This document shows, piece after piece, positions 8,881 through 60,179 of a DNA stretch of 64,000 nt (position 1 is the stretch's first letter; each line of letters opens with the position of its first letter). The position numbers and the translations under genes are program-made. The stretch is from Ectocarpus siliculosus (Eukaryota; Sar; Phaeophyceae; Ectocarpales; Ectocarpaceae), in NCBI GenBank assembly GCA_000310025.1, contig FN648602.1, positions 2,152-66,151 of the forward strand. Reading direction: 5' to 3'. The notes under the pieces are model-generated. The model was not told the DNA's origin. It searched no databases and saw only the letters and a list, made by a program, of their open reading frames with translations.

Positions 8881-8888
8881 CCTTACAG
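8832..8888. repeat. Short interspersed repeat, copy 1
   Basis: A sequence of pattern TTGCGTC(A/G)CCCCCGGG, then ACC(A/C/T)ACGTCCCGAA, then CTTACA recurs at 22850-22907 and 23785-23848. This copy abuts the outer edge of the left inverted-repeat arm, so one of the two may have inserted into the other. Confidence 0.55.
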
Positions 8889-21038: not shown

Positions 21039-21301
21039 GCTGGCGAAGAAAATGGTAGGGTACAATTTAAGGACTTGGTCATCTGAGACTACTGTGTGCA
21101 GTAAGATTGGTTCCCTCCACCGCAGGAGAGAGCACCCTCAGTTGCTGTGTGGAGGGAGAGAGAGACAGTATTTATTGGGAGAGAGGCAGCGGCACGATAG
21201 AAAGGCCGCAGAAACGTGTCTGCGGGAAACGCGCTCTCTGCCAGTTTGGTATCTCTCTCTTCCCTCGGGCTTTAAAAATTAAATGCAATTCGAACGAATA
21301 C
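21039..21301 (+). repeat. B-type terminal repeat of element 2
   Basis: It matches the reverse complement of the B repeats at 52105-52378 and 52759-53032, beginning GGCGAAGAAAATGGTAGGGT. It lies where B1 should be at the 3' end of the element, and no second copy follows. Confidence 0.8.
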
Positions 21302-29410: not shown

Positions 29411-29810
29411 ACATATATTTTTGGGAAAACGACACAACAGGGTATACCCTGGTCGAAAAGCGACACACCTGGGTACACAGTCATTAACAGCAGTAAATGC
29501 ATTCATATGATTGGTCAGCGCCCAATTTCACCCCGGTACGTCCGAAAAGGCGCAGGGTATACCCTGCTGTGTCTACTTTTCTCACCAACTGTACCCTGTT
29601 TTCGGAAGTGTACCCTGACCTGACGGGAAATAAGACCCATTCATCAATCATTTCTCCCGCAGGAATCTTCCCAACTCCTTTTCCTCTCCAACCATGGGGT
29701 ACCAAACGGCGAATCTTCCCACCCAATAACAACCATGGCAACGCGGCAGGAATCAGTTTCCGCCCCTGCCAAACAACACCAACCATCAACTCTTCCGCTC
29801 TAAATCAACA

Positions 29811-30560
29811 ATGGCCGGGCACTAACCCAGCACAGCAGTTGTTCCGTTTGGAAACATGCACACGCGCACAATACCCCGTGCACCACTGCTTGCTGCAGTC
29901 TATATGCGACATGCACGGGTCACGCTACGAAAGCGAGACCGATCTAGCATGGTTGACATGCACATATATATATTTATGCATGTATGTCCACAGCACTACA
30001 CGGGTAACGTTGGGCGCCGCCACTCCCTTCTGCCTGTGCCGTGTGTGCGTGGGTGTGCTGTCTGTTGTGTCTCAATTGCGATGTGTTTCTTGCTTGAACT
30101 ACTACTCCTACTGCTGTAACAGCAGCGGTCGCGCTTACCAGCCGACCAAGCCGACCAACCAATCAATGTATGTAGTAACAAGACGTCAGGCTTCAGCGGG
30201 ATGAGCCGATGAAATACACCGCGAGCACAGGGAGGGTGATTGAGTTGGACGACACAGTCCTGCTGCCAGAGTTGTTAGCACTCGCTCCTCCTTCCATGAT
30301 TGATGTCAAGGGCGTGTCTGTGTGTGGTGTTGCTGCCTCTCTCCTCCGCCCGCTCAGCGCAGCGCCACACATCATGGGCACATACATGCATATATATGCA
30401 TGTCAACCATGCTGGATTGGTCTCGCTTTCGTAGCGTGACCCGTGCATGTCGCATATAGATAGACTGCAGCAAGCAGTGGTGCACGGGGTATTGTACACG
30501 TACGTGTGTGCATGTTTCCAAACGGAACAACTGCTGTGCTGGGGTAGTGCCCGGCCATTG
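29811..30560. repeat. Inner inverted repeat inside the fold-back transposon
   Basis: Left arm 29811-29993 begins ATGGCCGGGC and right arm about 30374-30560 ends GCCCGGCCAT. Both contain the block TGCTGCAGTCTATATGCGAC or its complement, with a few changes. The loop of about 380 bp has no recognised gene. The unit may be a smaller fold-back element that inserted into, or was captured by, the larger one. Confidence 0.75.
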
Positions 30561-30561
30561 A

Positions 30562-31353
30562 CGTGTTTGCGCATACAACGAAATTTGCTATACTGATGCC
30601 ATGTAATTTCTTTAAAAAATAAAGTCTTTCCACCGTGCGCAAAAAAAAAAACCGGAAGACGAAGACAGATGATCCGCATTTGGCCGTGTAATCTCGCCGC
30701 GCACATACATACATGCAGCCGTGGAGTTCGAAGGGGCCAGGAAAGATGTGCACATACATGTGCACCTAATATTTGAAAATTGAAGCGATAGTCACACCAC
30801 GCCCTGTCCTCCGAGATGTCGGCGATGCACAAATCCCTCCCCCTCACTGTCCTGATGACCGTGCGATCTACCCGTACTGTCTCCACCTGCAGCGCTATGA
30901 GCGCAGCGCACAACTCGAGCTCTTCCGTTTCGTGCTCATCTTCTTCCTCGCTGTGCCAACCAACAGCAGCAGGACAGCTGCGCACAAGAGGCAAAGCTGC
31001 TCGTGCATCAGTTCTCCGGGCCTCATGGCGCCGTAGCGGCGTTTAAGGTTGACATCCCGGATCGGCCTCCTGGTTCTATCCATGACTTGTGTATAGGGGC
31101 ATGGGGCGGGCACTGGCTGCGCGTCTCGTAGCCCGCTGCCGTCTCGTGCCGTCTCGTGCCACAACGGCGCAGCAAGCGGCCCAAACTGACGTGGACCAAC
31201 CAGCGCGCGTGGTCGTTCGGGCGGCAAATTTTGCTTGCAAATTTCTCTAAATAGCGAAATCTCAAGACATATTTAGGCAGAAGTCGCGTCGGAGGAACTT
31301 TAGATACCCCGAACTGGTCGTTACGAGCCAAATTTTGTTCTGCGCAAACACGT
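30562..31353 (-). other. Internal segment of fold-back transposon, possible captured sequence
   Basis: A GC-richer segment with a minus-strand frame near 31045-30763 (HSEEEDEHETEELELCAALI). It does not resemble a transposase that I recognise. It could be a captured host exon, as Mutator-like elements often carry, or simply filler. Confidence 0.3.
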
Positions 31354-31753
31354 CATTGTTGATTTAGAGCGGAAGAGTTGATGGTTGGTGCTGTTTGGCA
31401 GGGGCGGAAACTGATTCCTGCCGCGTTGCCATGGTTGTTGTTGGGTGGGAAGATTCGCCGTTTGGTACCCCATGGTTGGAGAGGAAAAGGAGTTGGGAAG
31501 ATTCCTGCGGGGGAAATAATTGATGAATGGGTCTTATTTCCCGTCAGGTCAGGGTACACTTCCGAAAACAGGGTACAGTTGGTGAGAAAAGTAGACACAG
31601 CAGGGTATACCCTGCGCCTTTTCGGACGTACTCGGGTGAAATTGGGCGCTGACCAATCATATGAATGCATTTACTGCTGTTAATGACTGTGTACCCAGGT
31701 GTGTCGCTTTTCGACCAGGGTATACCCTGTTGTGTCGTTTTCCCTATATTTTT

Positions 31754-34150
31754 CCCTTCTTTCTTCGTTTCTCGGGCAACAGCATATTTTATTTTCGTTT
31801 TGTAGTTTTACACGAAAATATATGTATCGATACTTTCCGTACGGAATGAGGATTGATTGGTGGCGCGCGTGTCGGTTGGTTTGAACGAATGCTTTGCACA
31901 AGAAGTTTGCATTACCCACGAAATGAAATGGTCGAGAGGTCCCGCACATGGAATGATTGACAGCATCGATCTTAGCCGTGCAGCACACGTTTGTCATTCT
32001 CGCAGACCTACTCATCCTGTATCGGTGGCCGGGAGGCCGATTCTTTACCCTAGTTCTTATTTACACTTTGTGCGCGCGGGATTTCTTCGACAGTGGTGGA
32101 GGCCGGCCGGAGATGATACCGGTGACAATGTCCAATCTCTTGGTAGAAAAATTCTGTCTACATTAACATTACCACAATTGAACACAATGCTGGCGGATCA
32201 ATGGTATCCACCTACTACTTCCGCGCGGGGATAACAGAAACACGGACAAACACCACAGGCACACGTCGCAGGTGTACAGTCCACACCACCTGATATAGCA
32301 CGAAATCACACCAAATTCCTTTTCACCTCTCGTGTCCCTGGCCCTAACCGTGCGCGAACAACGGAATTAAGGGAAAAAATCCATCGGCCTGTGCGCCTTC
32401 CATATCTTGCTACAATACCTGTGTTCCGTGTTTTGTCTTTTAGTAATGCACCCGCCGACTGCCTTTGTTTAATGGGAAAAAGGTATTCTCGCCCCGGGTC
32501 GCGTCCGGATGGATAATCTGTTTCTGCGGTTTACAAGCGAACACCGCGTATAACAGTATACAGGCAACCACTATTGGAGAATATCTGTTGCACTGCGTGC
32601 GATACAATATGTATGTATGTATGGTTGTCGGAAAGCCTCCGGTTTCGAACGGTGCGCTAGCCTAGGATCGGTACTTAATAACGGCGGCTCCTCGCCGCGG
32701 TGGCGCCCTCCGGAACTACAGCGCAAGATTTCGTACGTCGGTCCGCTGTAAAGTATTATGGTGCTATTGTATATGTGCAGCGAACATGGTTATATTCATC
32801 CTGCGATACATGGACTGGTAGACCATAGATGCCCACAACTACTTTAACCACTTCACACTGGGCAGACGGAACGCTGCAGCAGCTCACTGCTGCACGTAGG
32901 CCTCCGTCCCGATCGTTCAGCGTTGCCCCGGCCCTGCCTGAAAGGCGTCACTCTACAAGTAGACGACAATTTCATCACTTCATCATCCAATCTTAGTGAT
33001 TTCCATCCATCCGTCGCTCCGCCAGACTCAACGGAACAAATGATATGGTACACGCCAGACCCACGAAGTAAAGTCCTGGGGGACCACAGCAAGGGAGGTA
33101 ACATATTCGTTCCCTACATACTTGTAGCGTGTTGCGGTCGTACCTGCCCAACAGGTGGCTTTCAGGAACTGTGTTTTTGTTGCCACCGTTGTTATTGCCA
33201 AGTGAGAAGAGGAGATGAGAATGATGAGGGGTGGCTGCACAAAACTTGCCGTGACATTTATTCTTCGCGCTCATACATTCTTCTGCCCTGGACGATGGCC
33301 GTGAGGATGGTTGTTTTTTTCTTGGGGTAACGGAAAACGTACCCCGGTGCGTGCCTTTCGTCCCACCGAGAGCGAAAACTCCCGTCCAGTCCCGGAGCGG
33401 TGCGGCCCTCCAGGTCTGGACTCTTCCTTCCATCTCTGTGGTGCTATTCATTGCCGGGTGTTGGTCGTGGTTTGTCAGACTATTGCGTACTTACTTGCAG
33501 TTTGAGTAATTACCATCCGAAGAAAACGCTCCGAAAAAGGTTCCGAGTCGGTCGCTACAATTGTTTTTTTTGTTTTTTTTAATCTTCACTTCAAATCAGC
33601 GATCACAGCACTAGTGCCGTTTACTCCAACCCGTGGTCACACAGAAGAGCTTCTCTCTACCCTCCCCTCCTGCGGTACTTTGCCTTCGATATTTACTGCG
33701 AGAAGAGTTCAGCACTCTCTTCCCTCTGTGTACACACGAACTAGCGCTATCCACTAGACCAGGAGCGGAAGCGAGAGAAAAACTCACTTTGTAAAAGGGC
33801 CGTTTTATACATTCCAATTTTTTGTTCAAATGTACAAATATTGGCAATTTTTTAATGTACCGGGACAGAGGTTTTGGAGTTTAATTACGCGGGCGAAGCC
33901 CGCGAAAAATTTTGAAACCCCTATTTTCTTCCGCAGAGGAGGGCTGCACCCTTTGCAACGAGTCGTCGTTGTTTAACCATCGTTTCCTCCGATTTCCGTT
34001 TCAACCGTTGGCGCACGTTGTGTCTGTACTTGTGGTGAATGGTAGGTGGGGCAATCATGTTGGCTTGGCCGTGAGATATTTCATTACTTTCTCCAATAAT
34101 TCGAGTTTTCGGTTGCATATTGTGTTATTGTCTATAAAATAGTAGCTACC
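31754..34150. other. No recognisable gene
   Basis: AT-rich tracts alternate with moderate-GC stretches. Frames of 60-150 codons at 31857-32234 and 32923-33451 have no recognisable domain. Near 33720-33770 a box A-like sequence (TGGTCTAGTGGATAGCG, minus strand) lies beside GTTTTATACATTCCAA, which also follows the tRNA-like unit at 49.4 kb. Confidence 0.4.
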
Positions 34151-34617
34151 AGGCACACCGCGATGGAGGACAGGGACCACGCCAGGGCGGCAGAGTCGTC
34201 GCTACCAGCAAAGAAAGAACCAACAGCAGATTTTCCGCTTTTTCCGCTCAGAAAGCATTCTGTCGATACTGAAAAATGTATAGAGTCTTACCACATGATA
34301 CAATCGTGCGGACGTTTGCTTGCCATGGACGCATGTTTGTTGTGGCAATAGATCTATTTCCAATCTTCATCTTGCACAGACCAACGAAGAACAGCATACC
34401 ATCTTCCTTTGCAGCAGGACGACAGTAATACTCCATTTACACACAGAAATTTACAACATACATCGCACTTGTGTAGACCTTCAACGCGACGACCGTGTTG
34501 TTGGCAGTTGCTGGAATACCACTGTAGTACAAGAAAGAGCAAAAAAAGGAAGAACAAACCACAGCAAAAAAATGGCGCCATAGAAACAAACGTGTGCCCC
34601 CCGACCTTGCCGTTACA
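34150..34617. other. Downstream flank of companion gene
   Basis: Holds a short plus-strand frame with an ATG at 34163 (about 62 codons) but no domain. I see no terminal inverted repeat that would mark the edge of a transposon carrying the two genes to the right. Confidence 0.35.
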
Positions 34618-35685
34618 CTACGTTGGGTTGCAACCAGAACATGTGCAACGATCGAAAGGGTTCTTCCTATTGTTCGGGTGGTCCGGCTGTCTACGAAGGT
34701 CGTTGGCCACCGAGCAAACCCTTTTCCCATATCTTCCCCCACCATGGTGAAACTCCTTCCAGCGCACCGCGAATGGGTTGTGACCACAGTCTCTGCACGA
34801 TACCACTCGAGGAGACGGAGCTGCTACCGCTGGCGTTGGTACAGGTGGTATGGGATGCCACACCTGTGCCGCGGCAGCCTTCCCCATGCCCGTTCCAAAA
34901 GTAGGAACGACCCCGTGGAGAACGCTGCAAGCTACTGCTGGTACCACGAAGGCTCCGTCCCCCTTCCGAGGCCTAGCAGTTTCCGTCGTCACAGAACTAC
35001 TCCCCCCAATACCTGTCGCGCTGCTGCTTCCCGTGTCTTCTGGGCGGGTTCCTGCAGCACCGACACCGGTGTCACCAACGTCGGTGTCTCCACCAACCCC
35101 ATAATTTACACCGACGTCGATCAGCGACTCGCCATCACTCACGCTGCCTCGCTCATCGCGTTCGTCGTGTTCGGGTCCTCCGGTAGCCGAAGGGGCAGGC
35201 CGTGGTAAAGTTGAACGCCCGTTGTGCACCAGCGGGAAGGAAAACGTTTGTCCCGTTATCGTCATGCCGACAGCTGCCCGCTCCGCCGTGCTTGGCTCTG
35301 AAAGTCGGACGCGATTTTTCTCGTACATCGCTGAAAGACGGTCTTTGTTCTGCTCCACCGTACGCGCGGTGTTGACTTCCTTCCTCGACTCGGTCCACCA
35401 GCTCTGAAGGTCGAAAGGCGCCTTCCGGTTGATCTTCTTGTTGGCATCGCCACTGACTTCCAAGCGCCCGGCCACCTCGTTCCTCTCGATTTCGCCGACG
35501 TCCTCGTTCCACTTTGCCGCAAAGGCATCGAAGTTGATACTTTGGGTACCACGGCGGTGGCCAGCAACCTGCTGCCTTACCTCCGGGGAAACCAAGAACT
35601 GAAAGACCTCGCGATCGAACTTGTCCTTCTCTGCCTGAGTTATGACGGCAGTCGTCATTCGCTCTCCTGGGGTCGCACCTTGCAT
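34618..35685 (-). CDS. Hypothetical companion protein with C-terminal Cys/His-rich motif
   Basis: A single-exon minus-strand frame of about 355 residues from an ATG at 35685 (a second ATG at 35658 is equally likely; the frame stays open further upstream). Residues about 15-140 are charged and helical, with Trp-containing motifs (NFDAFAAKWNEDVGEIER, PFDLQSWWTESRKEV). A long Gly/Ser/Thr/Val/Asp-rich linker follows. The last 60 residues hold CRDCGH, a Trp/His segment, a lone Cys and CTCSGC, which could bind zinc. The gene lies 610 bp downstream of the transposase-exonuclease gene on the same strand, so the two may be partners in one element. I do not recognise the family with certainty. I am moderately sure it is a real gene, because a 388-codon frame with a structured end is unlikely by chance. 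Confidence 0.6.
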   Translation of the reverse strand: MQGATPGERMTTAVITQAEKDKFDREVFQFLVSPEVRQQVAGHRRGTQSINFDAFAAKWNEDVGEIERNEVAGRLEVSGDANKKINRKAPFDLQSWWTESRKEVNTARTVEQNKDRLSAMYEKNRVRLSEPSTAERAAVGMTITGQTFSFPLVHNGRSTLPRPAPSATGGPEHDERDERGSVSDGESLIDVGVNYGVGGDTDVGDTGVGAAGTRPEDTGSSSATGIGGSSSVTTETARPRKGDGAFVVPAVACSVLHGVVPTFGTGMGKAAAAQVWHPIPPVPTPAVAAPSPRVVSCRDCGHNPFAVRWKEFHHGGGRYGKRVCSVANDLRRQPDHPNNRKNPFDRCTCSGCNPT

Positions 35686-35689
35686 CCGA

Positions 35690-36295
35690 GCGAAGAAACT
35701 AGGTCGAACAGAACACGAACCAAAGTAGATCGGGGAGGTTCCAACAGAAGAGCAGAAAATGAGCGTGCGATGTAATCGGTACATAGGTATGAACCTTCCG
35801 CCCCTGGGGGCGAGGGTCGAGACAAGACCTTAGAGTGGAATACCTGGACACTCCATACCGTGACGTTTACTCTCAATGACATGTACGTACGATAATGTGC
35901 TCCAATGGCTTTCGACATTTCCAAAGAAAAACAAAAAATGGTAAGGTAAGAGCACAATTACAAAAAACATTCCGGACGTCAACCCTTCATTTACTAACTC
36001 TGGGTTGCTAATCAAGAATCAAGCGCTTTTTATTCCAGTGGAAGGAAATACCCCCAAAAAAATGGACTCACCGCTCATTTGGAGTGCACCCATCGACAGT
36101 CCCCCACCTCGCCTTGGGTGCATCCCTGCGTTCGTCCTCTTCGGCATCGGCTGCCCCCTCGTCTTCCGATCCATCGCCATCGTCCAAAGGAAATACCTCG
36201 GACAGTCCATCCAACTCCTTGCGCGCTTGCGCAGGGTCCCGCGACATGACGAGGCCGGCGGACTCCCCGGTGTCGCGGAAGTTTGATGAAGATTC
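35690..36295. other. Spacer between the two minus-strand genes
   Basis: About 610 bp, probably holding the end of the transposase-exonuclease transcript and the promoter of the companion gene. I see no other frame with a domain. Confidence 0.45.
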
Positions 36296-39200
36296 CTAGC
36301 CAGGGTACAGAGGCTCGTCGTCGTACCACCCCTTAGTGATGGCTTGGATGTCCTCAACTTCCCAGTGGCTGTAGTAGCCGAGCAGGTCGGGGTCCATACC
36401 CCTATGCAAACCTGCACCCCGAAGCAAGAGAAACAGCAACAGCGGTCACGTTACATTGCATTCATGCAGTCATCCCCAAACCACTCCCGCCGCGGTTGCT
36501 CTACATATTTCAACGCAAAGAAGGTTTGCGCGAGTACTCCTTCGACATACCGGCCATGCGATGGTTCCGCCTGTAGTTGTGTAGCAGCATGGTGAAATGC
36601 GCCATCAGAGCAGAGGCGTGGTAGGATCCCATCAGCAGCCGCAGCAGTTGGTGGAAGTTTTCGATGCGGTTCGTGCCTTTGATTGACCGAATCAAATTTA
36701 GCCCGTCCTTCGTGCGCCCCGTGATCTCGAACAACGTTACAAGGTCTGGGTTTGGGTCATGCAAGCACCCCTTCTCGATGTGGGTGCGGAGCAGCTTCGT
36801 GGCCTTGTGCATGCGGTCCGTGAATAGCGTTTCGCCTGGTCAAGAGAACAATTTACACGCGAAAAACACAAGGAGGACAAGTCGTCATCCTACAGGTAGC
36901 AAAGCGTAAGCAGTCAGACGCTTGACTAGCACACGACTACCGCCAGTGGGTCGATGCAATATAAGCAACAACAGTAGTACCTGTGACGTCACGAACGTTC
37001 TTGAAAGTCTCGACCAGGTTGTCAAATCGCGGTAGGAGAATATCCGGAGAAGGCACTATCCGTGGCACATGTTTCAAGAGGTGACTCGCGTACTTTGCCC
37101 GCATGTCGGAAGCGATCTCCTGGTCGTTCCACGAAGGATTCCGCAGCTTCCATACGCTCCTCACGTCGTCCATGGCTTCCGGACAAGGTATTGCGAAAGT
37201 ATCCCGTGCAGCAGCGCAAAAGGGGCCATATGCCCCGTTATTTTTCGACCCACAGCTGATGAACCGATTCTCCGCATGATACAGGTCAAGCTTGACCAAA
37301 CACTTGCCTAGGGTCCTCGAAGTACCGGCTTTGGCGGCGCTACCGACGACACCCACCCCCACCGTACCAGATGAAGGTGCCGGCTCTCCTGCTCGCCCTC
37401 CAGACCCAGGAGTTGATGTCGAACCAGTTCTGGTGGCACCAGTAGCACCACCACACCCCGCGACGCCCGACGAGGACGCCGACCCTCCCACCTGTTCTTC
37501 AAGCCCAGGTGTCGAAGCCGAACTAGTTGCTGTGGTACCAGCATTTCCACCCCCGACGATGTCGGCGTCAGTCGGCAGTCTGGAGTTAATCTGACCAGGA
37601 AAACAAGCGAAGTGCATGAGGTTTCAGGTGACGGGAAAAGTGTCATTTGAAAGATGAATCGAAAATCATTCTCAGCCCGTGACAGACCATTTTTTGATCA
37701 TGTATATAATCAATGAACAACCTGCACTAAACAACAGTCCTGAGCACCCAACTCACCGCATCCCACAGAACGAGAGCCCCAAGCTCAAGCTCGTCTAGCG
37801 CTTGCACTTGGCCGCCACCCTCGCCAGGGTGAAGCACGAATGCTCCAGGAACGTGCTTCACTGTCAACCTCACCACCATCCGTGTAGCACCCCCCGTTAC
37901 ATGCCCAATCGTCAGGCCAGTGCTTCCCCACGTGCCGTCCTGAGAATATTCTTCGACGGTCCCCTCCGCCACACAACGTGTGTTCGTACTCGTGTACAGG
38001 CGTAGATGGGTGTTGGCAGGGAGCGACAGCACATCCGGTCGGCATTCCGTCAGGATGGGGTCCATTCTCGCCCAAATACGGTAAAAGAGGAGAACACCCG
38101 CATAGGAGTCAAGCCCCGCATACTTCTCCTGCCACAAGACGGTTGGAACACAGCGATATGATTGAGCAATCAGAGACAACCGCATTTGAAGTGCAAGAAA
38201 AGCTGACAAAAAGAGGCAATCAGGAAAAAAAAAAATGGGAGCGCTGTATACAAATTCGACCGATCACGCTCCTCGTACCTGGTCCTTCGTTAAAGTTGTC
38301 TCCCAATTGCTGGTGCGAACTGCGTCCTTCGCCAATCGTCGATGGAGTAGTTCTGCGGTCAGCGCTTGGAGCGAGCGTGCTCCGTTTTTGACGTGGAGAT
38401 GGACTCCTGCAAGCTGGCCAATATCGACCGGCTTAGTACCATGAACACCGTAGCTGTTGAAAAGGTGTGTGAGGTCACCGCGAACCGACACCCCAGCCTA
38501 GTACCGAAGACAGTATAGAGCATAGGGAATAATAAAATCAAGAACAAAACATCGGCAATTGATGGCTCGAACACAAAACAAGACAGGAACAATCTACCTG
38601 CGCCGGGGTCCCTACTCTGGCTGCGTCCACGCCGCCGGTACAAAACCTACGCATTCGTCAAGGCTACCATCAGTTCATCAGCAAACCAAGCTTACCAGCT
38701 GAATGGTGTCGTTGACCAGCAGTTCTTTGAGAGCTGTGGGCAGGATCCCTCGTCGGCGCTCTTCATACTTGAGGTGGAAAAGGACCGTGTAGCCGTCGCG
38801 TGCTGACAACTGTACGAGTGCAACTTGGCGACGAGGCCCGGATGGGCGCACACTCCACTCAATGTCGAATCCGAGCACCGCAGGAGCCGATGCCCGAGCG
38901 CGCCTCAACAGCTGAAGGCAAATTCTGCTGGAGAGCTCGCAGTTCTCGCTGGCCACGCGCACCAATATCGGTGAGGCTCCGGCAGGGAACTCGAGATTTG
39001 GAAGCTGCCGCTCAGCTTCTTCAGCAAAGTATGTTGACAACGCAAAGTCTGGCACATGTTGAGATGCTGGTCCAAGAGTTGACTGGATGATGTTCCCGTC
39101 TCCGCAGCACAAATCCGTCCAATACACCTGCGAAACGCCGGCGAGAACGCAAGATCCTTTGATTGAGTCGTGTTCACAAATTTGAACAAGCGTTCTTAGT

Positions 39201-41565
39201 GGCCATTTCGATACCGGTACCAATAACACTCTCCATACACCCGGCAAGAGATACCGGGGGTTCAGATCACCGACCACGGAACCCGACAGAATCGACGTAC
39301 CTGGATGGGGCGGAATCCCTGAGTCAAGTACCGGTTGGCGAGCGCCTTCAGATGAGGAGCGATCTCGCCCAGAGATGCCACGCCCACTTGCCGTTTGGGG
39401 CGCTATTTGGGGCAATACAGAGATAGCAGAAGGGGTGGTAACCAGGAAGTTGTAATCATGCCACAGACTTTGTGCATGCTGCAGCATCATTAGGTACAGT
39501 GTGGATTCACAAATAATGAGTCAACTAGGTCCAGTGAAAAGCCCCATCGCAGACTCCGAATCGCAGCCCCTCACCTGCATCACCACTTGGCCGTACTCGT
39601 TGATGATGGTGTAAACTCCATGGAAACTTTTTCGTGGCTCACTCTGATGGCCTTCACAACCTTGTGCGATTCGTCACCCGCCAAGTTCGTGCCATCCACT
39701 AACTGCTGTTGCCGGTGGTACCAATGCTCCCTTCCCTCCATCACAATTTCGCACGCACTCTTCAAGATAGCAGCGCTCGGCGGGCGGCCGTTGTATCCGC
39801 CTTGGTCACTGAACGAACCAAATCGCGGGGGCTTCTGTAGCAACTCGTTCTCCTTCGGGACAACAGATGGCTGATTCTGTCTTCTCCTCCTGTCCATGCG
39901 GGCGTAGTATCTGCGTCGAATTCGTTCGGGACAAGGATTAGCATCCAATACTTGCAGTCGGGCGACTTCGAATGGTATTTAGAATGGTTGTCATGCACTC
40001 GCACCTCTCCATACATTTTTATTTGATCAAGACAGCAGTGTACTTGCGGGCGAAATGCTCGCATGCAAACTACCTCCTCACCTTAGCTGCATCTTCATGA
40101 AGTGTTTGATGTGATTCTCTTTCAAATGATCTGCGAGGGTCTTCATCCCGATGGGGCTCACAAGACTCTGCTCGATCCGAGTCACAAGCTTTGTGTCGAG
40201 GGCTGAACGTCGCAGGATCACCGCTGGAAACAACTCCACCAGGTCACGCGGAAGCTGCTTGAGGACGCCTGGGTGCCACGGAGCAAACTTGTAACCGTCG
40301 GCGACTCTACTGCCTGCTTTCCCTTTTCCTTTACCATTGGATTTGTTTTTGCAGCTCTTGCAGGCGTGTTGTTTGCCTATGATGTGGTAGTTGAAGTGCT
40401 CGCCATGGACGGTTCGGCTTTGTGGGTCCCATCCATCACAAACCACCTGCCAGGCGGGGACCCGGGAATCAACGAATATCGGCTTTGATAAACTTGAAAA
40501 GCTGTAAATGTTGCAGCTTGATATGCTATAGATGTTGCAGCAACACTGCTGTTGTAGACCTGCTACGGGTATAGGGGTTAAGTCGCAGACAGCAGCGGCC
40601 CAGTGGACCGTACATGTACGTAAACTACATAGACTATTTTCCGTAGATGCAGACAAGTTTCATCTAACACAGCAGTAAACGCATGAATATGTACAAATAC
40701 TCACATCGCTACAATTGCCGCAGCGCGGGCAAGGGGGCGCCTTGATGGTCTTGTCGAGCAATTCCCAAATGCACACGAACACGGGAGTAAGGTAGTGAGT
40801 CTCGAGGTCCGGCACGGCGGAGAGCAGCGGATCGTCCGGGAAGAACCATGGGGAACCACGATCCAGAGTTCCCGTCACACCCTGCTTTTGGGAGCCATGG
40901 CCCACCCGTTTGCTGATGCTGTCGACCCTCCGCTTCACCGTCCTGATAAACTTGGCCATGGCACTGCTCGGGGGCACATCTTGGAGTTCTTCACATGAAC
41001 CTGCAGCGTGTGCTACTGCTGCTGTTGGCCCTGCTGTTGGCCCTGCTGCTGGCCCTGCTGTGGGAGCTGGTGCAGCTGGAGGCGGAATTCCTCCGCTGCT
41101 AGGCTGCGACGAGGCGGATGCTGCTGCACAATCAGCGGACCCAGAGCGTCCACGCGACTCTCGCCCCGCCGACAGGCTAGCCATTCCCTCCTCAGCATGT
41201 ACATCGCAAAACTTCCTGCTGTCGCTGCTGTCCTCTTGGCTGTGTCTCGGATGCCTGTCGCAGCCGCCGACTGCGCATCTTCCGGTTTGGACAGGGCGTA
41301 CCACCATACCAGGGGCAACCTCGGCAACAGACACCCCACCGGCAACAGACACTCCACCTCGCATACTCCCGCCGTGGACTCCCCCCTCCGGTAATGGCGA
41401 GTTCGCCGTCGGACCATGTTGTCGTGCCCAGGGGTTGGCCATTTGCTGTGGCCCAAGATTGGGCTGTCGCGGTCCCTTAGGTCCAGTCCTCTTCGCATTT
41501 TCTTTCGTTGTCAACGACCCTGGCGGTCGACCTTTCCTCTTCGTGTTGCTTGAACTAGCTGACAT
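36296..41565 (-). CDS. Transposase-like protein with inserted DEDDy 3'-5' exonuclease, ten exons
   Basis: Minus-strand exons: 41565-40705, 40482-40082, 39910-39575, 39402-39301, 39127-38696, 38497-38279, 38128-37757, 37590-36981, 36835-36551, 36411-36296 (TAG). All introns are GT-AG; every junction is in phase except for one base missing inside exon 3. The product is about 1244 residues. Order: AT-hook (KRKGRPPGS, about 9-17); low-complexity linker; FPDDPLL and two CxxC pairs (about 279/282, 328/331), resembling DUF6729; AGDESHK (Asp about 500) and YTIINEYGQV; LKALANRYLTQGF; VYWTDLCC (Asp about 571); an exonuclease with GFDIEW (about 654), VRGDLTHLFNSYG, KYAGLDSYA (about 785-793); a Gly/Ser linker; LDLYHAENRF (Asp about 1009); GTNRIENFHQLLR (Glu about 1170). 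I read the non-exonuclease acidic motifs as a DDE/RNase H-like transposase core: inference. The frame break near 39624-39633 may be a mutation or an assembly error. It may be a mobile or a domesticated gene. Confidence 0.82.
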
Positions 41566-44500
41566 ATCGCGTGTGCAGATGGCATATCGTGTGTGCAGAG
41601 AGGAGCCCCGCGTGTGTGCCGTGGCCTGGCCTTGCGTGTGGTGGTGTGTAACGTCGCTGCGGTCTCTCTGCTGCTGTCTGCTCTGCTCTCAAAGAGCGGC
41701 GGGATTAACCCTACTAACTTGGATTTAGACAAGACGCCAAGTAGGCGCCAAGTTAAATGGAGACAACTGATTGGCGGACGCCAAGTTAAATCTGTCCCGG
41801 TGGCTTTTTTTGCTGCCCAAATTTTCCGAAACTCCGGAACTTGTACAGAGGCGTTTGTCCAAATAGTCTATTTTCGAAAAATCCGGAACGAACCTGGACC
41901 CGAAAATTTGTACCCAGTAGCTTCCAAATTTCCAAATTTTCAAGCATACCGGCGGCATCGGTCCTACAACCCCCAGTCAAGGGTGCCACAGGCCGTACCA
42001 CAAGGGCTAAGCAACAGCAGATCTAGCTGAGATGTTGTCTGGGCTATGGCGGACGGCAGCAAACGTGGTGTGACCCCTGTTGCGGTGTTTTTTTCTCGAC
42101 GGGGCAGCGCGCGCCTGCCTCTGTCCGATCGAGAGGAAATGCTCCTAACGAGGTGCACGTAGCAGCTATCTCACCGCGACAGCAGGGCTGAGCACAGGGG
42201 TGGTCATGTCGATGGTCGTTCATGGCCTTGTTCCCAAGACGCAGCAGGCTGCTGTCGTGCCGCGGCGCCTAAATGGGGACGAGCACACACTTCCGTGCTT
42301 CCTTGCGGACATCTGTAGGCGGCGACACTCTCGAGGATGGAGGTACGCATCGATGAACGAGTACGCGTTCAACTGGAGCAGCTGGCACATACCCTGAGCA
42401 CAAGGACGAGTCTACCAGGCAAGTGGGAAGAGATTGAGGCAGACGGGCATGCCCTGTTCGTCTCCAGTAACCCGTTCGCGCTTTGGTTCCCCGCCCTCTG
42501 CTATTATTCTACTGCTGCTGTGACCCGCTCTTTTTCCTGTCTTGTGTGGTGAACCGATACGCATATCTGCTCTTGTTTATGCATACACCATGCGTGTATC
42601 CTTTGAGTACCCGCCCGCTGTCACGCTGGCTGGAAATGACAACCTCTTCTACTCGAGGCTCAACCTTTGTACAAGTACCTTGGTCCATCAGTTTTTCGGT
42701 GTCTTACTGCTGTAGTTCTTTTAGACTCCATGTATTTCTGTATTCGGTGTTGTTGCTCATCGAACACGGCTGGCTGTGCTGTGCTGTGGCATCGCATCAT
42801 GTGCAGGAACATGCGACGGCATTGGCGCGCTGTCGAAGATTCGTTCGCCTTGCCTACTTGTGGCGGACATGGTCGAGAGCTTCATACTTCGACCTCACAC
42901 CGTACTATTGGCGTTGCGGAGGAGCTGACCTTCGTGTCCCGTGGCACCAACGACGAAACCGTTCTATGCACGCCTAGCAGGCGGACCTACTGCTGCTTGC
43001 TGTGGAGGTATGTGCGGTACATCTACAATCTACACACACATGTGACACCTCTTCAGCCAACTGTTATTAGCGTTTCTGTAAATGAACGCGTGAAATTGCC
43101 CGTAACAGCAGCAAAAGGGTCAGTTGGGTCTGTATTGGCGTGGGCACAGCACCAGCAGTTTCGCAGCGTTCGTTTGCGGCGATGTACTGTAGATTCGGAC
43201 CACGCCACTGGTTGTAGTTCTAGATCTCTCCTGGACTGCTTGTAGCCCGTTGAGTCGACTCCAGAGGCGGAGCTTGCGTTGGAGCTGCAACCTAGGTAGG
43301 GGTGAAAGTAATGCGTATTTCGGCAAACCCTGTGGAGCATTGTCGGAAGGAAGGGGTTTGAAGCAGACAACCAACTTGACTGAGGTGCCCCGTCCGGAAC
43401 CCAATTTGTTTCGCGGTGTTTCGGTACTGGTTTGTGCTGTTTAATTTGACTCGTGGGTTATCTTTCGACCTGAGTCACAAACCCAAAGAAGATGAGAATT
43501 CAATCATGTCTGCAAGGGCTTCAACCCTTCCCTTCCAACGCCTGCACACCACCCTGGACCCACCTACAACAACAGATACCGGCTATTCCCGCGTGTGCCT
43601 CCCGAGACCGCCTTTCGAAAAAAAGGCCGAAAACGCCGTAGCGTTTCCATTCGGGATTTGGTTTAAGTACCTGGTACTACTTTGAGTAACGTATGGTGCA
43701 GGACATGAAGTGGGACGGGGGGTGCTTCCCGAGACGCTACGCTAACTGAAGAGAAACAGTAACAACGAGGTGTCGCCGTCATCCCCCCAACCCTCTTCAC
43801 CCATCCCTTCCCCCAGCCGTGGGCCTCCTGCGAGCATTTCTTTTGTTATTGCGACATTAATTTGTTCGGAACAAATGTTGACAATGCTCCTTTCGTGCGG
43901 TGGGTCCTGGGTTGTGAGTTGGATACATGGCATCAGCTAACCGGAACCCAACTGTTGTGTTGTAATCTTGCCCCTGCGAATTTTGTCGTCATCTAATGCT
44001 TAAGGCGAGCATCCAACGATGCGTTGCCGACTAAACATCAAGAACACTGGCATGGATAAGCGAGCGGGGTCCGGCGAAGTCGACACGCGCATGACGATGA
44101 CGATACTGCTGGACGAACAGCGTGGATACCGTCCGGACACAACCTGGTCCGGGCTAGGAAATGATTTGGTCGGGCGGGCGGGCAATGTTGCGTGGACGTG
44201 CTGCCTCGAGGAGACTGTAGATTTGGGATCGTGGGCAGGGGGTAGAGGAGCCCTCGCTTGGGCTGGGTCGGTGACGGCGGAGGGCGACAGGTGCTTGTGT
44301 ATTTGCTGTGCGGGGGGGGGTGTTGTTGTCTAGGTTGGGACCAAGGGAGTCATCAGCGAGAGGGAGGCCGTGGACGAACGAGGGATTGTTGGGTCGGGTT
44401 GCGCCATTTCGACAAGCACACACTGGCCGCTACACGGACAAGGGCAGCGAGAACGTTTCGGTAGGCGGTCTTCCATTTGGAGTTGATTTTTGTTTGCTGT

Positions 44501-44740
44501 CTTCTTCATGGAGAGGTGCTGTGTAAGGTTTTCTTATGTCTAACACCAGCCCCTATCAAAAACGCTGAAGGAGTACGTGGCAGACAAATATCCCCCTGCG
44601 ATGTGCGCTTGCAGCCTTTGCGCTTGGTGTCTTTGCTTGGTATATTGTTGTTCCTGTTCTCAGTGTGCTGCTGCAAAGCACCGCGTAGAGGTGCTTGCCT
44701 GTACGACGGAGTTGTGACTTGGTGTGCTCTTTCAATAAAT
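41566..44740. other. No recognisable gene
   Basis: The left end should contain the promoter of the transposase-exonuclease gene. At 41720-41790 the block GCGCCAAGTTAAAT and relatives occur twice, and 41810-41950 is rich in CCAAATTT and GGAAC modules. Plus-strand frames at 42337-42552 (charged, helical start) and 43505-43684 could be exons but show no domain. G-rich sequence lies at 44310-44330. Confidence 0.4.
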
Positions 44741-44742
44741 AT

Positions 44743-46443
44743 AAGACTAGGGTTAAGGATTGGCCCCCCGCCCCCCAATGGGGCTGTGGGCCAACGTCCA
44801 GGACGGATGGTGGTGAGTGTCCGGGAGGACGGAAAGAAGAAGAAGGGGAGAGGATTTGTAAGGGCGGGAAGAAGGGACGGTGTTGGGAGAGGCAAGGAAG
44901 TGATGAAGAATTTCGGCACTCGACGAGCGCGCGGTCCCGTCGGGGGTGAAAGGAACATGTCAGTCCGTAGTCTTGTCTATCGGAATCGAAAAGCCGAAAA
45001 ATCGAGGTATACATTATGTACACAACGACGGAGAAGGCCGACGAGGAAGGTATGAAGAGAGGAAATTGCACCCCACGTTCGAACTCGGGGTGAAACCCCC
45101 CGCAAGGATGGAGTGCGAAGGGAACAAAAAAAACCCGGAGACGTCGACGTTTGTTTGCGTCGTGGAGCGATCCTTCTGTATATCGCAGGTACTCACCAAC
45201 GCAAAACGGGGAGGTAAAATACCCATCGTGAAAGTCAAAGCGCAGGTCATAGCTGCATATTACGCATGCGCGGAGAATTTACCACACGGAGACTTATCAA
45301 CAAGAAGTTTGAAGGCCGGCTGAGAAGGTTTGAAGACACAAACACTTACGCGGCGACGATGGCAAGCGCAACGTCAAAACTTCACAACAACAAGAAGAAA
45401 AGTGCATACAAAAAAAGAAAAGGCCGGATGGCGACCTATGGCTCTCTCTCTCAGAATGAAGGGATTCCCACAATTTCCAACAGGTAGTCCACAAGTATCG
45501 AGGAGGACGTCGGGACGGTTTTTAATGTGGAGACAACAACAACAACAACAACGATGAAGGTTGACCCGTCCTGCGTCGTTCAGTGTAGAATGATAAATGC
45601 AAAAGATGTACTGCGTAAAGATCCAGCGGTGTTTTTCGGCAGTGACAAAGAAATATGCGACCACATGCCGCGAAAAAAAATAAAGTTGAGCGGGATACTC
45701 TATTATTCTATAGTAAATAGAACACCGCCTTCTCTGTTGTTGCAGGCAGGTTTGCTTCCACAACCCGGGAACCCAACCCACTCTTGTATTTCGGCCTACA
45801 AGACTCCAATCGACACAAGCACCGGTAGGAGAGTGCGTGGGAGATGCCGTGACAGCACAACTCCACTCTCCTACGACATCTATGTACAGTAGCTGCTGTC
45901 GTTGTAGCACCATGTGGAAGATCTCCGAGGGGTCCTCCTGCGCGGTAACGACAACATGGCGAGAGCTCTACGTGTACGTGTCGTCGACACATGTGGCAGC
46001 CGCGCGACACACGAACGGATGTTTGCATCGCACTGAACTATGCTTCGCCGTGGCAGGAAGTATCCCATCCCGTTAGGTCGCTGCGGTACTTGTAGCACGC
46101 GGACGTCGTTCGGCGTCTAGTCCATACTGCTGTAGCAAAAACACAGCAGCAGTAATCGAGCTATGCATGAAATAGTTTGCTCTGGTTCACTTTTGCCTCC
46201 ACAACCCGAGAATCCCACTGCTGTATCTTGACCTACAAGACTCCAATCAACAAACCAGCACTGGCAGAAGTGCGTGGAAGATGCTGTGACAGCACAACTA
46301 AGTCGACACTCGTACGACTTCCATGTAAAGTCGGCGTCTGGTCCATACTGCTGTAGAAATTCAAAAATCGAGCCATCTTTTTTTTGTTTTTTTCCATACT
46401 AATAACAAGAAATCTATCACGTCACGACGACCATCCTGTAAGT
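44743..46443 (-). repeat. Right arm of long inverted repeat (about 1.7 kb)
   Basis: Reverse complement of 8882-10738, from CTAGGGTTAAGGATTGG at the inner edge to GACGACCATCCTGTAAG at the outer edge. Compared with the left arm it lacks the 394-bp duplication and carries about 230 bp of extra sequence near 45170-45400. The distance between the two outer edges is 37.6 kb. No target-site duplication is visible at the outer edges. Confidence 0.85.
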
Positions 46444-49440
46444 ATATATATAACATGATAATAGGTTGTGCGGATCCCATGCAGATCACGAGCGTTCCTG
46501 GTGATGTCGTGATAGCACACCCCCCACACTAAATTTAGGTTTGAAGGGGTTATTGTTGCGGAATGAGGACTGCCACTCTACGGAGGAGAATGAAACGATG
46601 AAGATGCCGGGAGAAATGCCTCGGGCATTGGCCAGCCGCGTACGAAAAAAACTATAATGCCCCAGGGCGAACTTAAAGTTTTGAGCTTCGGCGAGTTTTT
46701 TGGGGGGGAGATTACCATGGAGGGGGGTGTTCTGTACGGTAAGTGACGTGCTAGCCCGCACGAAATAGCTCAAGCTCCCGTGGGGAGGTGGCGTTTGTAG
46801 TTTACACACCACGAACAACAAAATGTTGGGGATCTTATTCACGTGGAAGAATGCGTTTGGCCCTTCAAGCAAAGTGCAGCATACCATGACCACCGGAGCA
46901 TGATTAGTGCGATCTCCATTCTCTTCCTGAAAATCACGCACGTGGCAGGTCGCCCCAAAGAAGGAGCCTACGTGACAACGACATACACAAGGAACCACAC
47001 ACATCTCCACGTTGACTGGCCCTTCGTCAAGCGTGCTACTACACGAAAAAAAAAAAAAGCCGGGCATGGGTGTCAGGCCGAAGTGTATTTTGGAGCATCG
47101 GCTCAGCTCTCTTTCCTGTTACCCCCAGTACGAACGAACGCGTGCCACAAAAATATTTGCACCTGTGTCAGCAAGGTGCCATTCAATTCTCACGCAATGC
47201 TTGTTTCCTGAAGAGAACCTTTGCTACAAATATTTATTGCGTATAGCACGACGACGCAAATTACGAATGAATGCTTTGCTTCGTCTTTGAAAACAAGTAC
47301 ATACGCCACCGTTTTACGAGTGGCTAGGAACAAGAAAAAAAAAGGTGTAGTTGCCACCGTACCGTCCCCGCCGTCCTTTCAAACCAGCAGTGGCCATGTG
47401 CGTGGGCCTTCCAGGAACCACACCGACATGCATAACCAAGCACGAATGCGAGGGACGCCAAAACCCGAACGTATCGAAAACACGTTGTGCTAAACGAATG
47501 CGTCCCAGAAAATATTTCGCCATCATGCAAGCACGCCACCTAGATCACCCCTAGAACAACAAGCCCCCCTTATATCCCCCCACGCAATTCCTGCTCGCTC
47601 ACATCCCTCCCTCATGCTGCGAGATATCCCCCCACCGCTCCGTCCACCTGCGCCATTTTTTACCATCGAAAAAATACGTGAGAAGGGCGATCGGGGGGAG
47701 GTCAGGTGGGTAAAACAGGCACGGCAACTTTGCTGCTGTACAACTTTGTGTTTCTTTCTGGTGCCCCGATCTGCCACTTCGTTTCGCAAGCACTGATGGG
47801 ACAGCTCAGAAAAGGTGTTCCTTCTTACTGATACAAGCGGAGAATGACACTAAGATGTGATGGTGCAACCTCATTCTGTTGCAGGAAGAAAATCAAAGGG
47901 GTTGCCTGAATCGATTTTGGCTTTCGGGGAGAGGTTTGGTTACACTTTGATAGTTGGGGCATCACCTTCACTATTTCGTTCTTGACAGTAGTAGTCGGTG
48001 ACCCATTTCTCCGCGCTGTATCCTGGTTGTCGAGCTCTTCTTTCGCGCCAGCTGCGTCTCTTGCTCTCGGCAAGGTCTTTCTTCTACCAGTCGTCTACTC
48101 GGTCACGCGAGGAACGTAATTTTTTTCATCTTCTTCTAGCTTCATGAGGTGCGGTCGCCGGCTGCAGCGGCATTTCGCCTTGATGGCGTAAAAAAGAAGT
48201 GGCAACGGTGCGGGACGCTCAGTCAAATATTGCATAGTAGCAGAGTCGCACCCCAGAAATCTGGCGAGTGCAGGCGAGCAGAGAACGGTAGGTCTAGGTA
48301 AACACGTACCAGTTTTTTCTCGCGTCCTGGTCAGGCATGTTCGGTGTCGGCAACGGTCGGAGGGGTGATGGGGCGTATTCCGACAAAAGCATTGTACTCG
48401 TACAATACAATCCACACTCTGTCTCACAAGGACCGCTGGCAGAATGGCTGTTGCTGTACTTCTAGACGAACACGCCACAACGCATGAATGAGCGCAAAAA
48501 ATGGTGCACATGGTATGCGTGTCACTACAAAAGATTAACGATATACCACTGCTGCCGACTTGACCGACGGATTACAGCAGGTTTCGGCGATACTACTGCT
48601 GTATCCGCGACAGGCAGAAAGTAGACGGCGTGTAGTCTAGATTGTACGTAGAATACAAGTACTCTCGGCATGTATTTGCCCACACGTACAAAATGTACAG
48701 ACATGCAGCGGTGGATCACAAAGTAGGTACAGCACCTCCGTGGCACCAGCATGTTTTGATATGTATGTATGCTACAGACTCAAGAGGACACATGTGGGTG
48801 CAGCAGCTTGTACCATGAATACCACCCGGCACATGCTTCGACTTGCAGTGCGAGACAAAGAGTTGGGAGTAGCGCGGGTGCGAGCGAGTGCGGTGAGACA
48901 AAAGAGAGGGGACGAGAGCGACACACACACACACACACCAGGCGGCGTAGACAGAAAACTCGCTTCCCACAGACCTGTTAGTGTAACCTCGAGGCCCGAG
49001 ACATGATGGCTTCTCCTTTCAACAACCTGGCTGGCGTTATCCAGCAAGTAGGACATGCTCTCGGTATCGTGTTGCTTCGCGCTTCGCCTTGGCCCGGGGT
49101 GTTGCCTGGCGCCGAGCAGGGAAAACTGCATGCGGCTGGACCTACAGCAGCGCCATTAACCGCCCTGTCTGCTGAATCCAGCCGAGACTTGCCCTTGGTG
49201 ACCACCAACCCTATCTATGTTGGGCCCTACCATGGTATCGCGCGTGTGGGGTCGTTGTCTGTGGAGTGCGGGGTGTGGTTGAAGGGGCATGCCCTCTCGC
49301 CATCACATGCGGCAAGATTTATTTGGAAAGTTGCCTGCAGCGTATATAAAATGAGCCGTTCGGTTCCAAATATTTGGCGCCAACAATTTGGAAATTTTTG
49401 AACAAAAATTTGGAATGTATAAAACGCCCCTAAGAAAAGC
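46444..49440. other. No recognisable gene
   Basis: Frames of up to 193 codons occur, for example on the minus strand at 46486-47067 and the plus strand at 49003-49401, but none shows a domain or a convincing splice structure. A short CA microsatellite is present near 48917-48939. Confidence 0.4.
48917..48939. repeat. CA microsatellite
   Basis: About ten CA dinucleotides in a row. Confidence 0.75.
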
Positions 49441-52758: not shown

Positions 52759-53032
52759 TTTATTGTTTTCTTTCGAATTGCATTCATTAATATTTTCTAC
52801 CGCCCGAGGGAAGAGAGAGATACCAAACTGGCAGAGAGCACATTTCCCGCAGACACGTTTCTGCGGCCTTTCTATCGTGCCTCTGCCTCTCTCCCAATAA
52901 AGACTGTCTCTCTCTTCCCTCCAAACAGCAACTGAGGGTGCCCTCTCCTGCGGTGGAGGGAACCAATCTTACTGCACACAGTAGTCTCAGATGACCAAGT
53001 CCCTAAAATGGTACCCTACCATTTTCTTCGCC
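52759..53032 (-). repeat. B1 repeat of element 3
   Basis: Partner of 52105-52378; it directly follows the recombinase-end sequence of element 3. Confidence 0.85.
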
Positions 53033-54423
53033 AACATCGAGGTCATCATGACACTACTCGTGCAGTGGGATTAGCTCCTGTTACTGCCTACCTACCGCAC
53101 ACAGTGCTTTCCCCCGATTGCCTCCCGACTCGCTATGTCGTACCGAACGGGACACCCCTTGCGAGTCCTCTACTGTGGGCGGCTCCTACACATTCCTCTG
53201 ACTTCATCTTCCCGCCCTTCGGGATACTCGTTCCAATGTGTTGCCCCCAACAGCCATATACAGCAAATTCCCAAATCCTTAGCTAAATTTGCAGCGCGCG
53301 TTAGTTTCTGGGATTCACCCCTATTTGGTAACTATTTGCCTCGAAGCTCCTCGGGCTTGGGCATACTTCATAACTTGCACTGCACAACCTTTAACTAAGA
53401 CAGGATGTTTAACGGCGCGTCATCGGGCAACGTTGCACAACATGACAACGACGCCACCACCAGAGCAACTGCTCCGCCGTCTGCTCTATATCCCGATCAT
53501 GGGTCGTTAACCTCATCCCGATTCTTGGGTCGCCTGATGCGATGCACGAGGAGAACCCTGACCACTCCGGCGTGACGACGGCAGGAATAATCGGCACCCG
53601 GCGGTGATACGGGTGGCTTCCTACACACTGCCGCCGCATCGACCAGCTGCCCCGCTCCGCGATTGAGGACCCGATGAGGTCGTCCATCAGGTCTGAGTTC
53701 GCTTGTGCCTTAATCGCTGCAGCCCTTGTTACCATGCCGTTGGGCCGCCCTCATTCGGCCGTGTGTTTTAATTCACTCAGCTCTCGGCGACCCCTTCAAT
53801 AACATCCTTTTGATTCCACCGCCGCCCCTGGGCCGCGGTCTGCGGTCCGCGGAGGAGACCGTGCACGGCACGGGCGCCTTGCTGCTCCCCGAGCGGGCGA
53901 AAGCCCTGGCTCCCATGAAGACGGTCGCGGCGTGGTCGCGGCGTGGGGCACCCGGCGGACCTATCCGCCGTCATGGCTTCTGAAAGGAAACACCTGGCGT
54001 TGCCGGCCACGATCCCCACGCACCGGTCCGCCCGCGTCCTGCCGCCCTGCCCAGGCGTGACCTCGATTCAATCGCCATCTGCGAGTGTGCAAGCGCTCCC
54101 TTTCACAACAAGCAACAGAGCAAAACGAAACCGAGTTGATGCGTTTCGTCCACGCGAATAGCGGAAAAATTGGCATTTAAATATTTCGTGCGTACATCGC
54201 ACGAATGCCGACTGTGTAAATGTGGGTAGTGCTGTTGAAATAAGCCCCCCCAAACCAGGCCACCAAAACACGATTGATGTGTTTCGCCCCAGCACATACC
54301 TATTGCACATCATCTGCATGATATACATAATCAACCGCGTAACCGCACAAACTCGGCGGCCACAGGAACGGCACTACTGTATGAAACAGGCGGCCCTACC
54401 ACAGAACCAACAACGAATGTTGG

Positions 54424-54623
54424 TTTATTGTTTTCCTTTCGAATTGCCTTCATCATTATTTTTCCACGGCCGAAGGAAAGAGAGAGGTGCCAACTGCTTC
54501 TCTCTCTTTCCTCCGAGCGGCAACCACAAATTCTCTTTTTCTCGGTGCAGGGGCTAATCTTACTGCCCGCAGTAGTCTCAGATGACCAAGTCCCCAAAAT
54601 GGTACCCTACCATTTTCTTCGCC
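54424..54623 (-). repeat. B2 repeat of element 1
   Basis: 200 bp, differing from B1 by one substitution. Confidence 0.9.
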
Positions 54624-55202: not shown

Positions 55203-56231
55203 CTACTCGTTCGGTGATATTAGCCTCCTCTTATGCCTACCCCACACCGTGCCTTCTCCTGGCTGCCGCTCGACTCCCTTATCCTTGTCCCCAAGTATAC
55301 GTGACACCATTCGCGAGTCTTCCGTGTTGTCTACTGTATACGGTTTGTACGCATCAGACTTCCACCTTCCTGCTCTCTGGATTACTCTTTCCGAAACATT
55401 GCCTCCAGCCGCCAAGGTGGAAGCCCCTCCAATTCGGAGCGAATGTAACGCAAAGTCTTTTGGATTTCGCCCTGACTTCTCGACAATCTCTCTCAACGCC
55501 CGAAGGGCTTGGTCATACTTCAGAACCTTCACTGCACGGCCGCTACGGTATGATGATAGCGGCGCATCATCGGGTAACGTTGCATGACATGACAACAGCT
55601 CCAACATCAGCGCAACTGCTCCGCCGTCTGCTCTGTACCCCGATTGTGGGCCGTTAATCTCATCCCGTGTACGAGCCCTGACCGACCCCGTCTGGTCCTG
55701 GTCACCCTTGTGTCCTCTAAAGTGCACCTCTATCTTATCCGGCTCTCGCCATCGGACATACTCCAACTGTTCCTCCCCAGAGAAAAACGCAACATCCCGT
55801 CTCGTGAGACAATGTACTGGATGCCCGACCCCGGAACTGTCAGCAAACATTTCGTCCGACCGAGTGATCAAGAAATAGCTTAAGCTCAAACATAACCACA
55901 TCACGCGTCCTCCTATTCCCCAAGTGGGAATCATGCTCTCACCCCCTCGCAACATCCTCCAAGTGATCGGCAATCGAACTCGTTGACGTACCCCGGCGAC
56001 CGCGTGGGACCTAGAAATGCCCCGAAGTGCACACTTCAGCAACGGCGACGACGTGACTATCTCTACATGTGCTTCCACCCTGTGGTGGTACTGCACCGCT
56101 GCCAACTTCCCCGATATAGTCCCGGCCTGGTTTCCTTCCGACTCGAAACACCACGCCGCAAAGTCAATCAAGGCCCACACCATCTCTGTGTGCGGTGACT
56201 CTGCGCTCAAGAACTTTTCGTAACCCATCAT
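55203..56231 (-). CDS. Tyrosine recombinase of element 1
   Basis: A frame of 342 residues with a SAM-like N-terminal region and a catalytic C-terminal half. The HSLRIGGAS block supplies the His-x-x-Arg pair and GRWKSDAYKPY carries the likely nucleophilic Tyr, as in the phage-integrase fold. In this class the enzyme inserts a circular DNA copy into the genome without a target duplication. It overlaps the end of the RT/RNase H region by a few bases. The N-terminal half matches the fossil at 2.6-3.5 kb. Confidence 0.88.
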   Translation of the reverse strand: MMGYEKFLSAESPHTEMVWALIDFAAWCFESEGNQAGTISGKLAAVQYHHRVEAHVEIVTSSPLLKCALRGISRSHAVAGVRQRVRLPITWRMLRGGESMIPTWGIGGRVMWLCLSLSYFLITRSDEMFADSSGVGHPVHCLTRRDVAFFSGEEQLEYVRWREPDKIEVHFRGHKGDQDQTGSVRARTRDEINGPQSGYRADGGAVALMLELLSCHATLPDDAPLSSYRSGRAVKVLKYDQALRALREIVEKSGRNPKDFALHSLRIGGASTLAAGGNVSERVIQRAGRWKSDAYKPYTVDNTEDSRMVSRILGDKDKGVERQPGEGTVWGRHKRRLISPNE

Positions 56232-58404: not shown

Positions 58405-58538
58405 TCATCAAGGCTCTCAATCCCACCTTGCTGTCTCCTCGGCGCCGTCCTCGTCGGCTCCATCACAGCACCCTCGGCGGAAGGCGCGCGCGGGTAGCTC
58501 GTCGAGGTTGGCCCTGTCGCATGACAGAGCCCGTGTCC

Positions 58539-60030: not shown

Positions 60031-60179
60031 CTAAAGCGGTTACAACATGCACGACCCGCGGTTTCGGAATGCTCAACATTTTGTTGCCTCACAAAATGAC
60101 TGGTGAACGTGTGTGTACATGCAGTTGTTTCGACACATGCTCGACTGCGAGAATCGCCCAAGGCGACACCTCGAGGGGT

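Follow-up and report, generated by a model that had tools for sequence, protein, structure and literature searches.

A probable decayed Dada transposon encoding a WRN-like exonuclease in the brown alga Ectocarpus siliculosus

Results

A probable transposase gene with an exonuclease inside its proposed core

The minus strand of a 64,000-nucleotide stretch of Ectocarpus siliculosus contig FN648602.1 (the window, with position 1 its first letter) carries a split gene that is very probably a decayed Dada DNA transposon of the exonuclease-bearing type reported from Ectocarpus as Dada-1_ES. The assignment of its product to the Asp-Asp-Glu (DDE) transposases and the mobility of the element are inferences and are worded accordingly below. 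The Dada superfamily, defined by Kojima and Jurka in 2013, is described as having a DDE triad, a DxxH motif that follows the second D, a CCCC zinc finger in the N-terminal region and a CCHC zinc finger in the C-terminal one, and as containing introns in all members except those of Perkinsus marinus; in the Dada elements of Ectocarpus and Laccaria, the same account places a DEDDy exonuclease between the second D and the DxxH (PMC3706591). What we find at this locus is a proposed DDE triad with DxxH, a CCCC finger, a CCHC finger in a probable eleventh exon, and a DEDDy exonuclease in the corresponding place.

The gene, modeled from splice signals and homology, begins with an ATG at 41565 and, over ten exons separated by nine GT-AG introns of 139-258 bases, reaches a TAG at 36298-36296. 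A preliminary description of this DNA, made from the sequence alone, had joined ten exons in phase apart from one base. Our model confirms this: exon phases match throughout the nine introns, and the odd base falls in an A run at about 39632-39628 in exon 3. The exon count of that description stands, but its length of about 1244 residues does not, the spliced reading up to the TAG coming to 1232 positions with one X at the frame break. All seven motifs that it listed are present in this reading and in the order given: AGDESHK (position 486), YWTDLCC (557), GFDIEW (641), GDLTHLF (706) and YAGLDSYA (775), followed in the C-terminal half by LDLYHAENRF (997) and TNRIENFHQ (1154).

By homology, the WRN-like DEDDy exonuclease is real and beyond chance, because its ExoI to ExoIII motifs, a Pfam domain and the sequences of WRN structures all point to it. 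DNA_pol_A_exo1 (PF01612) matches the middle of the protein with E = 1e-12, and when the middle part was compared with the sequences in the PDB at E up to 0.1, the four matches were WRN 2e6l (E = 1.2e-20), WRN 2fbt, WRN 9hzg and 6k17, the last being exonuclease 3'-5' domain-containing protein 2. The domain is complete, with ExoI GFDIEW, ExoII GDLTHLF and ExoIII YAGLDSYA (Y-x3-D) and with the four catalytic residues kept, and it lies between the second proposed acid of the core (D560) and the DxxH (D998), which bears out the earlier claim of a full exonuclease between the second and third acidic motifs. The earlier association of such an architecture with DUF6729 was also right: PF20499 matches the N-terminal part with E = 6e-10. 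As a term, DUF6729 gave no match in a literature search. Two weak Pfam matches below the cut-off, EBNA2_Core and CHX17_C (E = 0.27 for each), were set aside as chance.

Around the exonuclease, the proposed triad and the DxxH stand in the order D488 (GDESHK), D560 (YWTD), D998-x-x-H (LDLYH) and E1158 (TNRIENFH), at a distance of 72 from D488 to D560 and of 160 from the DxxH to E1158; motifs and their spacing are the basis on which the triad is proposed. Upstream of it, the "two CxxC pairs" noted previously are real cysteine pairs but are correctly read as one CCCC finger, C285/C290/C316/C319, the pairs being separated by 26. The sequence KRKGRPPG in exon 1 we take to be AT-hook-like. No Pfam family matched the segment that follows the exonuclease, and an AlphaFold2 model of the final 97 residues encoded by exon 7, computed from the single sequence without relatives, had a mean predicted local distance difference test score of 43, is unreliable and was not used. 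The stretch of some 90 residues that comes next to the exonuclease (37757-38047 on the minus strand, in exon 7) is perhaps a second small inserted domain.

The end of the gene and its lesions

The TAG at 36298-36296, where the preliminary description ended the gene, is probably a premature stop, and the gene probably ran on originally to 34618, because the frame is open from the TAG to a splice donor, an acceptor matches that donor in phase, and the exon that follows has an open frame of rare length with a second finger in it. Past the TAG the frame is open for 74 more residues, up to a GTGAGT donor at 36071; the acceptor, with its last base at 35699, leads into a 359-residue exon 11 ending at 34618, and this exon, downstream of the in-frame TAG, holds CRDCGHNPFAVRWKEFHHGGGRYGKRVC, a C-x2-C-x12/13-H-x9/10-C finger. 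Stop-to-stop runs of at least 73 codons are common in the window (429 of 3694), and hence the 74 open residues count for little by themselves; runs of at least 356 codons number only 5 of the 3694, and the open frame containing exon 11 measures 403. As assembled, the copy has two disabling lesions, the frame break in exon 3 and the in-frame TAG, either of which could be a sequencing error.

Table 1. Proposed layout of the Dada-type transposase gene, in window coordinates
Feature	Position	Strand	Basis
Whole Dada-type transposase gene in its longest supported form (11 exons)	34618..41565	minus	Exon model, motif order, PMC3706591
Exon 1: AT-hook-like KRKGRPPG, EsV-1-7-like motif (residues 97-128), C285 of CCCC finger	40705..41565	minus	
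Exon 2: C290, C316 and C319 of CCCC finger; greater part of the best DUF6729 stretch (residues 340-427)	40082..40446	minus	PF20499, E = 6e-10
Exon 3: D488 in GDESHK, proposed as first catalytic acid; frame break	39575..39910	minus	
Exon 4: core segment separating the first acid from the second	39301..39402	minus	
Exon 5: D560 in YWTD, proposed as second catalytic acid; exonuclease begins after it, with ExoI GFDIEW	38696..39127	minus	
Exon 6: ExoII GDLTHLF	38279..38497	minus	
Exon 7: ExoIII YAGLDSYA (Y-x3-D), then segment without reliable fold model	37757..38128	minus	
Exon 8: linker of low complexity, followed by LDLYHAENRF with the DxxH motif	36981..37590	minus	
Exon 9: proposed catalytic Glu TNRIENFHQ (E1158)	36551..36835	minus	
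Exon 10: in-frame TAG 36298-36296; frame open beyond, to GTGAGT donor	36072..36411	minus	
Probable exon 11: C-terminal region, C-x2-C...H...C zinc finger CRDCGHNPFAVRWKEFHHGGGRYGKRVC	34618..35698	minus	

An EsV-1-7-like motif

Exon 1 also encodes an EsV-1-7-like cysteine motif, GRCAVGGCDRHPRHSQEDSSDSRKFCDVHAEEGM (41182-41277, minus strand, residues 97-128), which was absent from the preliminary description and scores 22.4 bits, below the Pfam cut-off of 25. EsV-1-7 domains have proliferated in brown algae, and a survey of Ectocarpus transposable elements reports the domain on a Tc1/mariner transposase; the table of that survey has a Dada row for Ectocarpus reading 1, 15, 1, which we take as families, copies and intact copies (PMC12477816). 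This was the only paper found in which EsV-1-7 and a transposase come together, and Dada appears in it once, in the table. The motif here in itself suggests a brown-algal origin for the element. If it holds and is confirmed in other copies, the presence of an EsV-1-7 motif on a Dada transposase would be a modest new detail, adding a second superfamily with the domain.

Ends and flanks of the element

Dada-U6 and Dada-U1 have short sub-terminal inverted repeats and no terminal ones (PMC3706591). Exact inverted repeats between the flanks of our gene are 11 bases at longest. One such pair, ACCGGGACAGA (33859-33869 and 41791-41801), was tried as candidate ends and rejected as chance-level, as a match of that length or longer occurred in 94 of 388 randomly drawn pairs of window stretches of the same size; there are two further A-rich 11-nucleotide pairs besides it, and the flanks up to 40 bases outside the ACCGGGACAGA pair have three A/T-rich 6-mers in common and nothing longer. 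As an end repeat, CGCCAAGTTAAAT fared no better: its exact copies, at 41746 and 41779, are confined to the 5' side, and allowing up to 3 mismatches gave 14 matches, no more than chance would give. Protein scans revealed no relatives in viral and prokaryote contigs, which is unsurprising because the element is eukaryotic and such scans reach close relatives only.

There is also a 35-nucleotide inverted match between 33796-33830 and 49397-49431 (94%), one arm of which is about 0.8 kb past the 3' end of the gene, and a repeat in two inverted copies, at 8882-10737 and 44739-46442, about 87-97% identical in pieces, one copy lying some 3 kb from the gene.

Other repeats in the window

Elsewhere in the window, the open frames at 55203-60030 on the minus strand contain, by eye, gag-like, reverse transcriptase/RNase H and tyrosine recombinase motifs that hint at a DIRS/Ngaro-type retrotransposon; a Pfam scan allowing E up to 0.01 detected no such domain there and gave only a sub-cut-off SlyX match. 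An inverted repeat at 29423-29813 and 31354-31744 (391 nucleotides, 98% complementary, 1540 nucleotides apart) has the look of a DNA transposon bounded by long terminal inverted repeats. A tandem-like array of 1.6 kb occupies 60178-61851, with self-matches at offsets that are multiples of about 120 bases, and a 1.7-kb repeat is found in inverted copies at 19633-21306 and 52760-54437, 92% identical.

Discussion

Weighing the assignment to Dada

The preliminary description proposed a DDE-type transposase with a DEDDy exonuclease in its core, and this is still the best reading. Several observations weigh against it, or against its specific assignment to Dada. Dada elements insert into small nuclear RNA or transfer RNA (tRNA) genes and make target duplications of 6-7 bp (PMC3706591). 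In the whole window, we found 0 Rfam matches at the gathering score and 0 tRNAs with ARAGORN, searches that can overlook gene halves; with E up to 10 allowed, Rfam gave only one long noncoding RNA match in 30500-45000, at chance level (E = 5.3). Neither a target duplication nor a terminal repeat was found around the gene, and the 64 kb hold one copy of it. Profile searches, which had been named as a check on the proposal, recognized DUF6729 and the exonuclease, but the core without the exonuclease matched no family in Pfam or NCBIfam and so no transposase profile. The likeness to Dada is itself drawn from the published description, and in comparison with Dada-U6_DR of zebrafish, the gap between the cysteine pairs is 26 instead of 35 and the C-terminal finger reads C-x12/13-H-x9/10-C instead of C-x9-H-x8-C (PMC3706591).

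The lack of element ends and of a target duplication, together with the single copy in the window, would also suit a host gene that was domesticated from a Dada transposon and kept the nuclease while losing mobility, and a domesticated Dada, dDada, has been reported from cyprinoid fish (PMC8869645). We nevertheless consider domestication improbable: a frame break and an in-frame stop would not be expected where a host gene is conserved, assembly errors aside, and all motif acids are kept here, whereas in dDada the two D residues are often mutated and the DxxH has turned into DxxQ (PMC8869645). Very improbable, in our judgment, is a transposon of another superfamily with DxxH (MuDR, hAT or Kolobok, in particular the exonuclease-bearing KolobokD) that gained its exonuclease independently. 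The exonuclease of KolobokD is of the DEDDh type and TREX/ERI1-like (PMC9587614), whereas the one here is DEDDy and WRN-like, and the exonuclease placement and both zinc-finger types fit the description of Dada; the core, matching nothing in Pfam or NCBIfam, speaks for no other superfamily and equally gives no positive support for Dada. Scarcely credible is a chance or artefactual join, either of unrelated exons or of a transposase remnant with a cellular WRN-like exonuclease gene lying inside or next to it, for while the model does come from splice signals and homology, all ten introns are GT-AG with matching phases, the second acid and ExoI share one open frame in exon 5, and the same order has been published for two other genomes (PMC3706591).

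A decayed Dada copy, the reading that we prefer, suggests that DUF6729 beside a WRN-like exonuclease is the mark of a described transposon superfamily, and therefore such proteins need not pass for host repair enzymes.

How an intact copy might work

In DDE transposases, the core cuts the element ends and joins the 3'-hydroxyls to target DNA, and in the hAT transposases an insertion domain sits between the second D and the E, much like the exonuclease placement here. A large helical domain interrupts the RNase H-like core of Hermes, which is itself a hAT transposase (PMC3985635). In an intact copy of our element, the CCCC and CCHC zinc fingers, perhaps with the EsV-1-7-like motif, would bind the element ends and the target; the split RNase H-like DDE core would cut the element ends and join them into the target; and the WRN-like exonuclease, 3'-5' by homology and presumably active, may trim 3' ends exposed in excision or integration. 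That the exonuclease processes cleaved 3' ends was proposed already in 2013, as a conjecture of one sentence (PMC3706591); for the word "proofreading" used in the preliminary description, we found no supporting evidence.

Rather tentatively, and thinking it unlikely, we raise the idea that the brown-algal Dada elements are a lineage adding two modules, an EsV-1-7 finger that would recognize DNA and a 3'-5' exonuclease that would trim 3' ends once they are cleaved. If true, trimming could alter which target bases get duplicated or rewritten, something hinted at by Dada-tA, for which Kojima and Jurka reported a replaced target sequence (PMC3706591).

Comparison with known systems

Among the proteins with a similar nuclease, WRN carries a RecQ helicase; in the three pieces of our protein that were scanned, Pfam at E up to 10 matched no helicase domain. 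The exonuclease domain of WRN (PDB 2e6l, 2fbt and 9hzg) has the ExoI to ExoIII motifs in common with ours but stands without the transposase core that the protein here is proposed to have. Among transposons, KolobokD belongs to a different superfamily (PMC9587614), and instead of its DEDDh type we find an ExoIII of the form Y-x3-D and WRN as the best match. TcMar-2_Ec32 resembles our element as a brown-algal transposase with an N-terminal EsV-1-7 domain and differs in being of the Tc1/mariner superfamily (PMC12477816).

Dada-U6_DR comes closer. It has the same motif order and finger types, with 68 residues between the first and second D (72 here) and 176 from the second D to the E, within which the 160 from DxxH to E observed here fit, and in its CCCC finger, as in ours, the first pair is five apart and the second three apart; it sits in U6 genes, and the accessible part of the account names the exonuclease only for Laccaria and Ectocarpus Dada (PMC3706591).

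The preliminary description saw in the architecture a distinct type of transposition machine. The machine is not new in type, because Kojima and Jurka describe the same arrangement, and a transposase with an inner exonuclease has been in print since 2013 for the Dada elements of Ectocarpus and Laccaria (PMC3706591); a paper on casposons, in its accessible part, cites Dada for target sites only (PMC4046053). The closest known systems are Dada-1_ES of E. siliculosus and Dada-1_LB and Dada-2_LB of Laccaria bicolor (Table 1 of PMC3706591), the exonuclease being ascribed to Laccaria Dada in the accessible part of that account without a choice between the two families. The copy analyzed here is set apart by its two lesions and by the EsV-1-7-like motif, of which the accessible part of that account makes no mention for the published elements; it shares with them the proposed DDE triad with its DxxH, the DEDDy exonuclease between the second D and the DxxH, the CCCC finger before it, the CCHC finger after it, and the introns.

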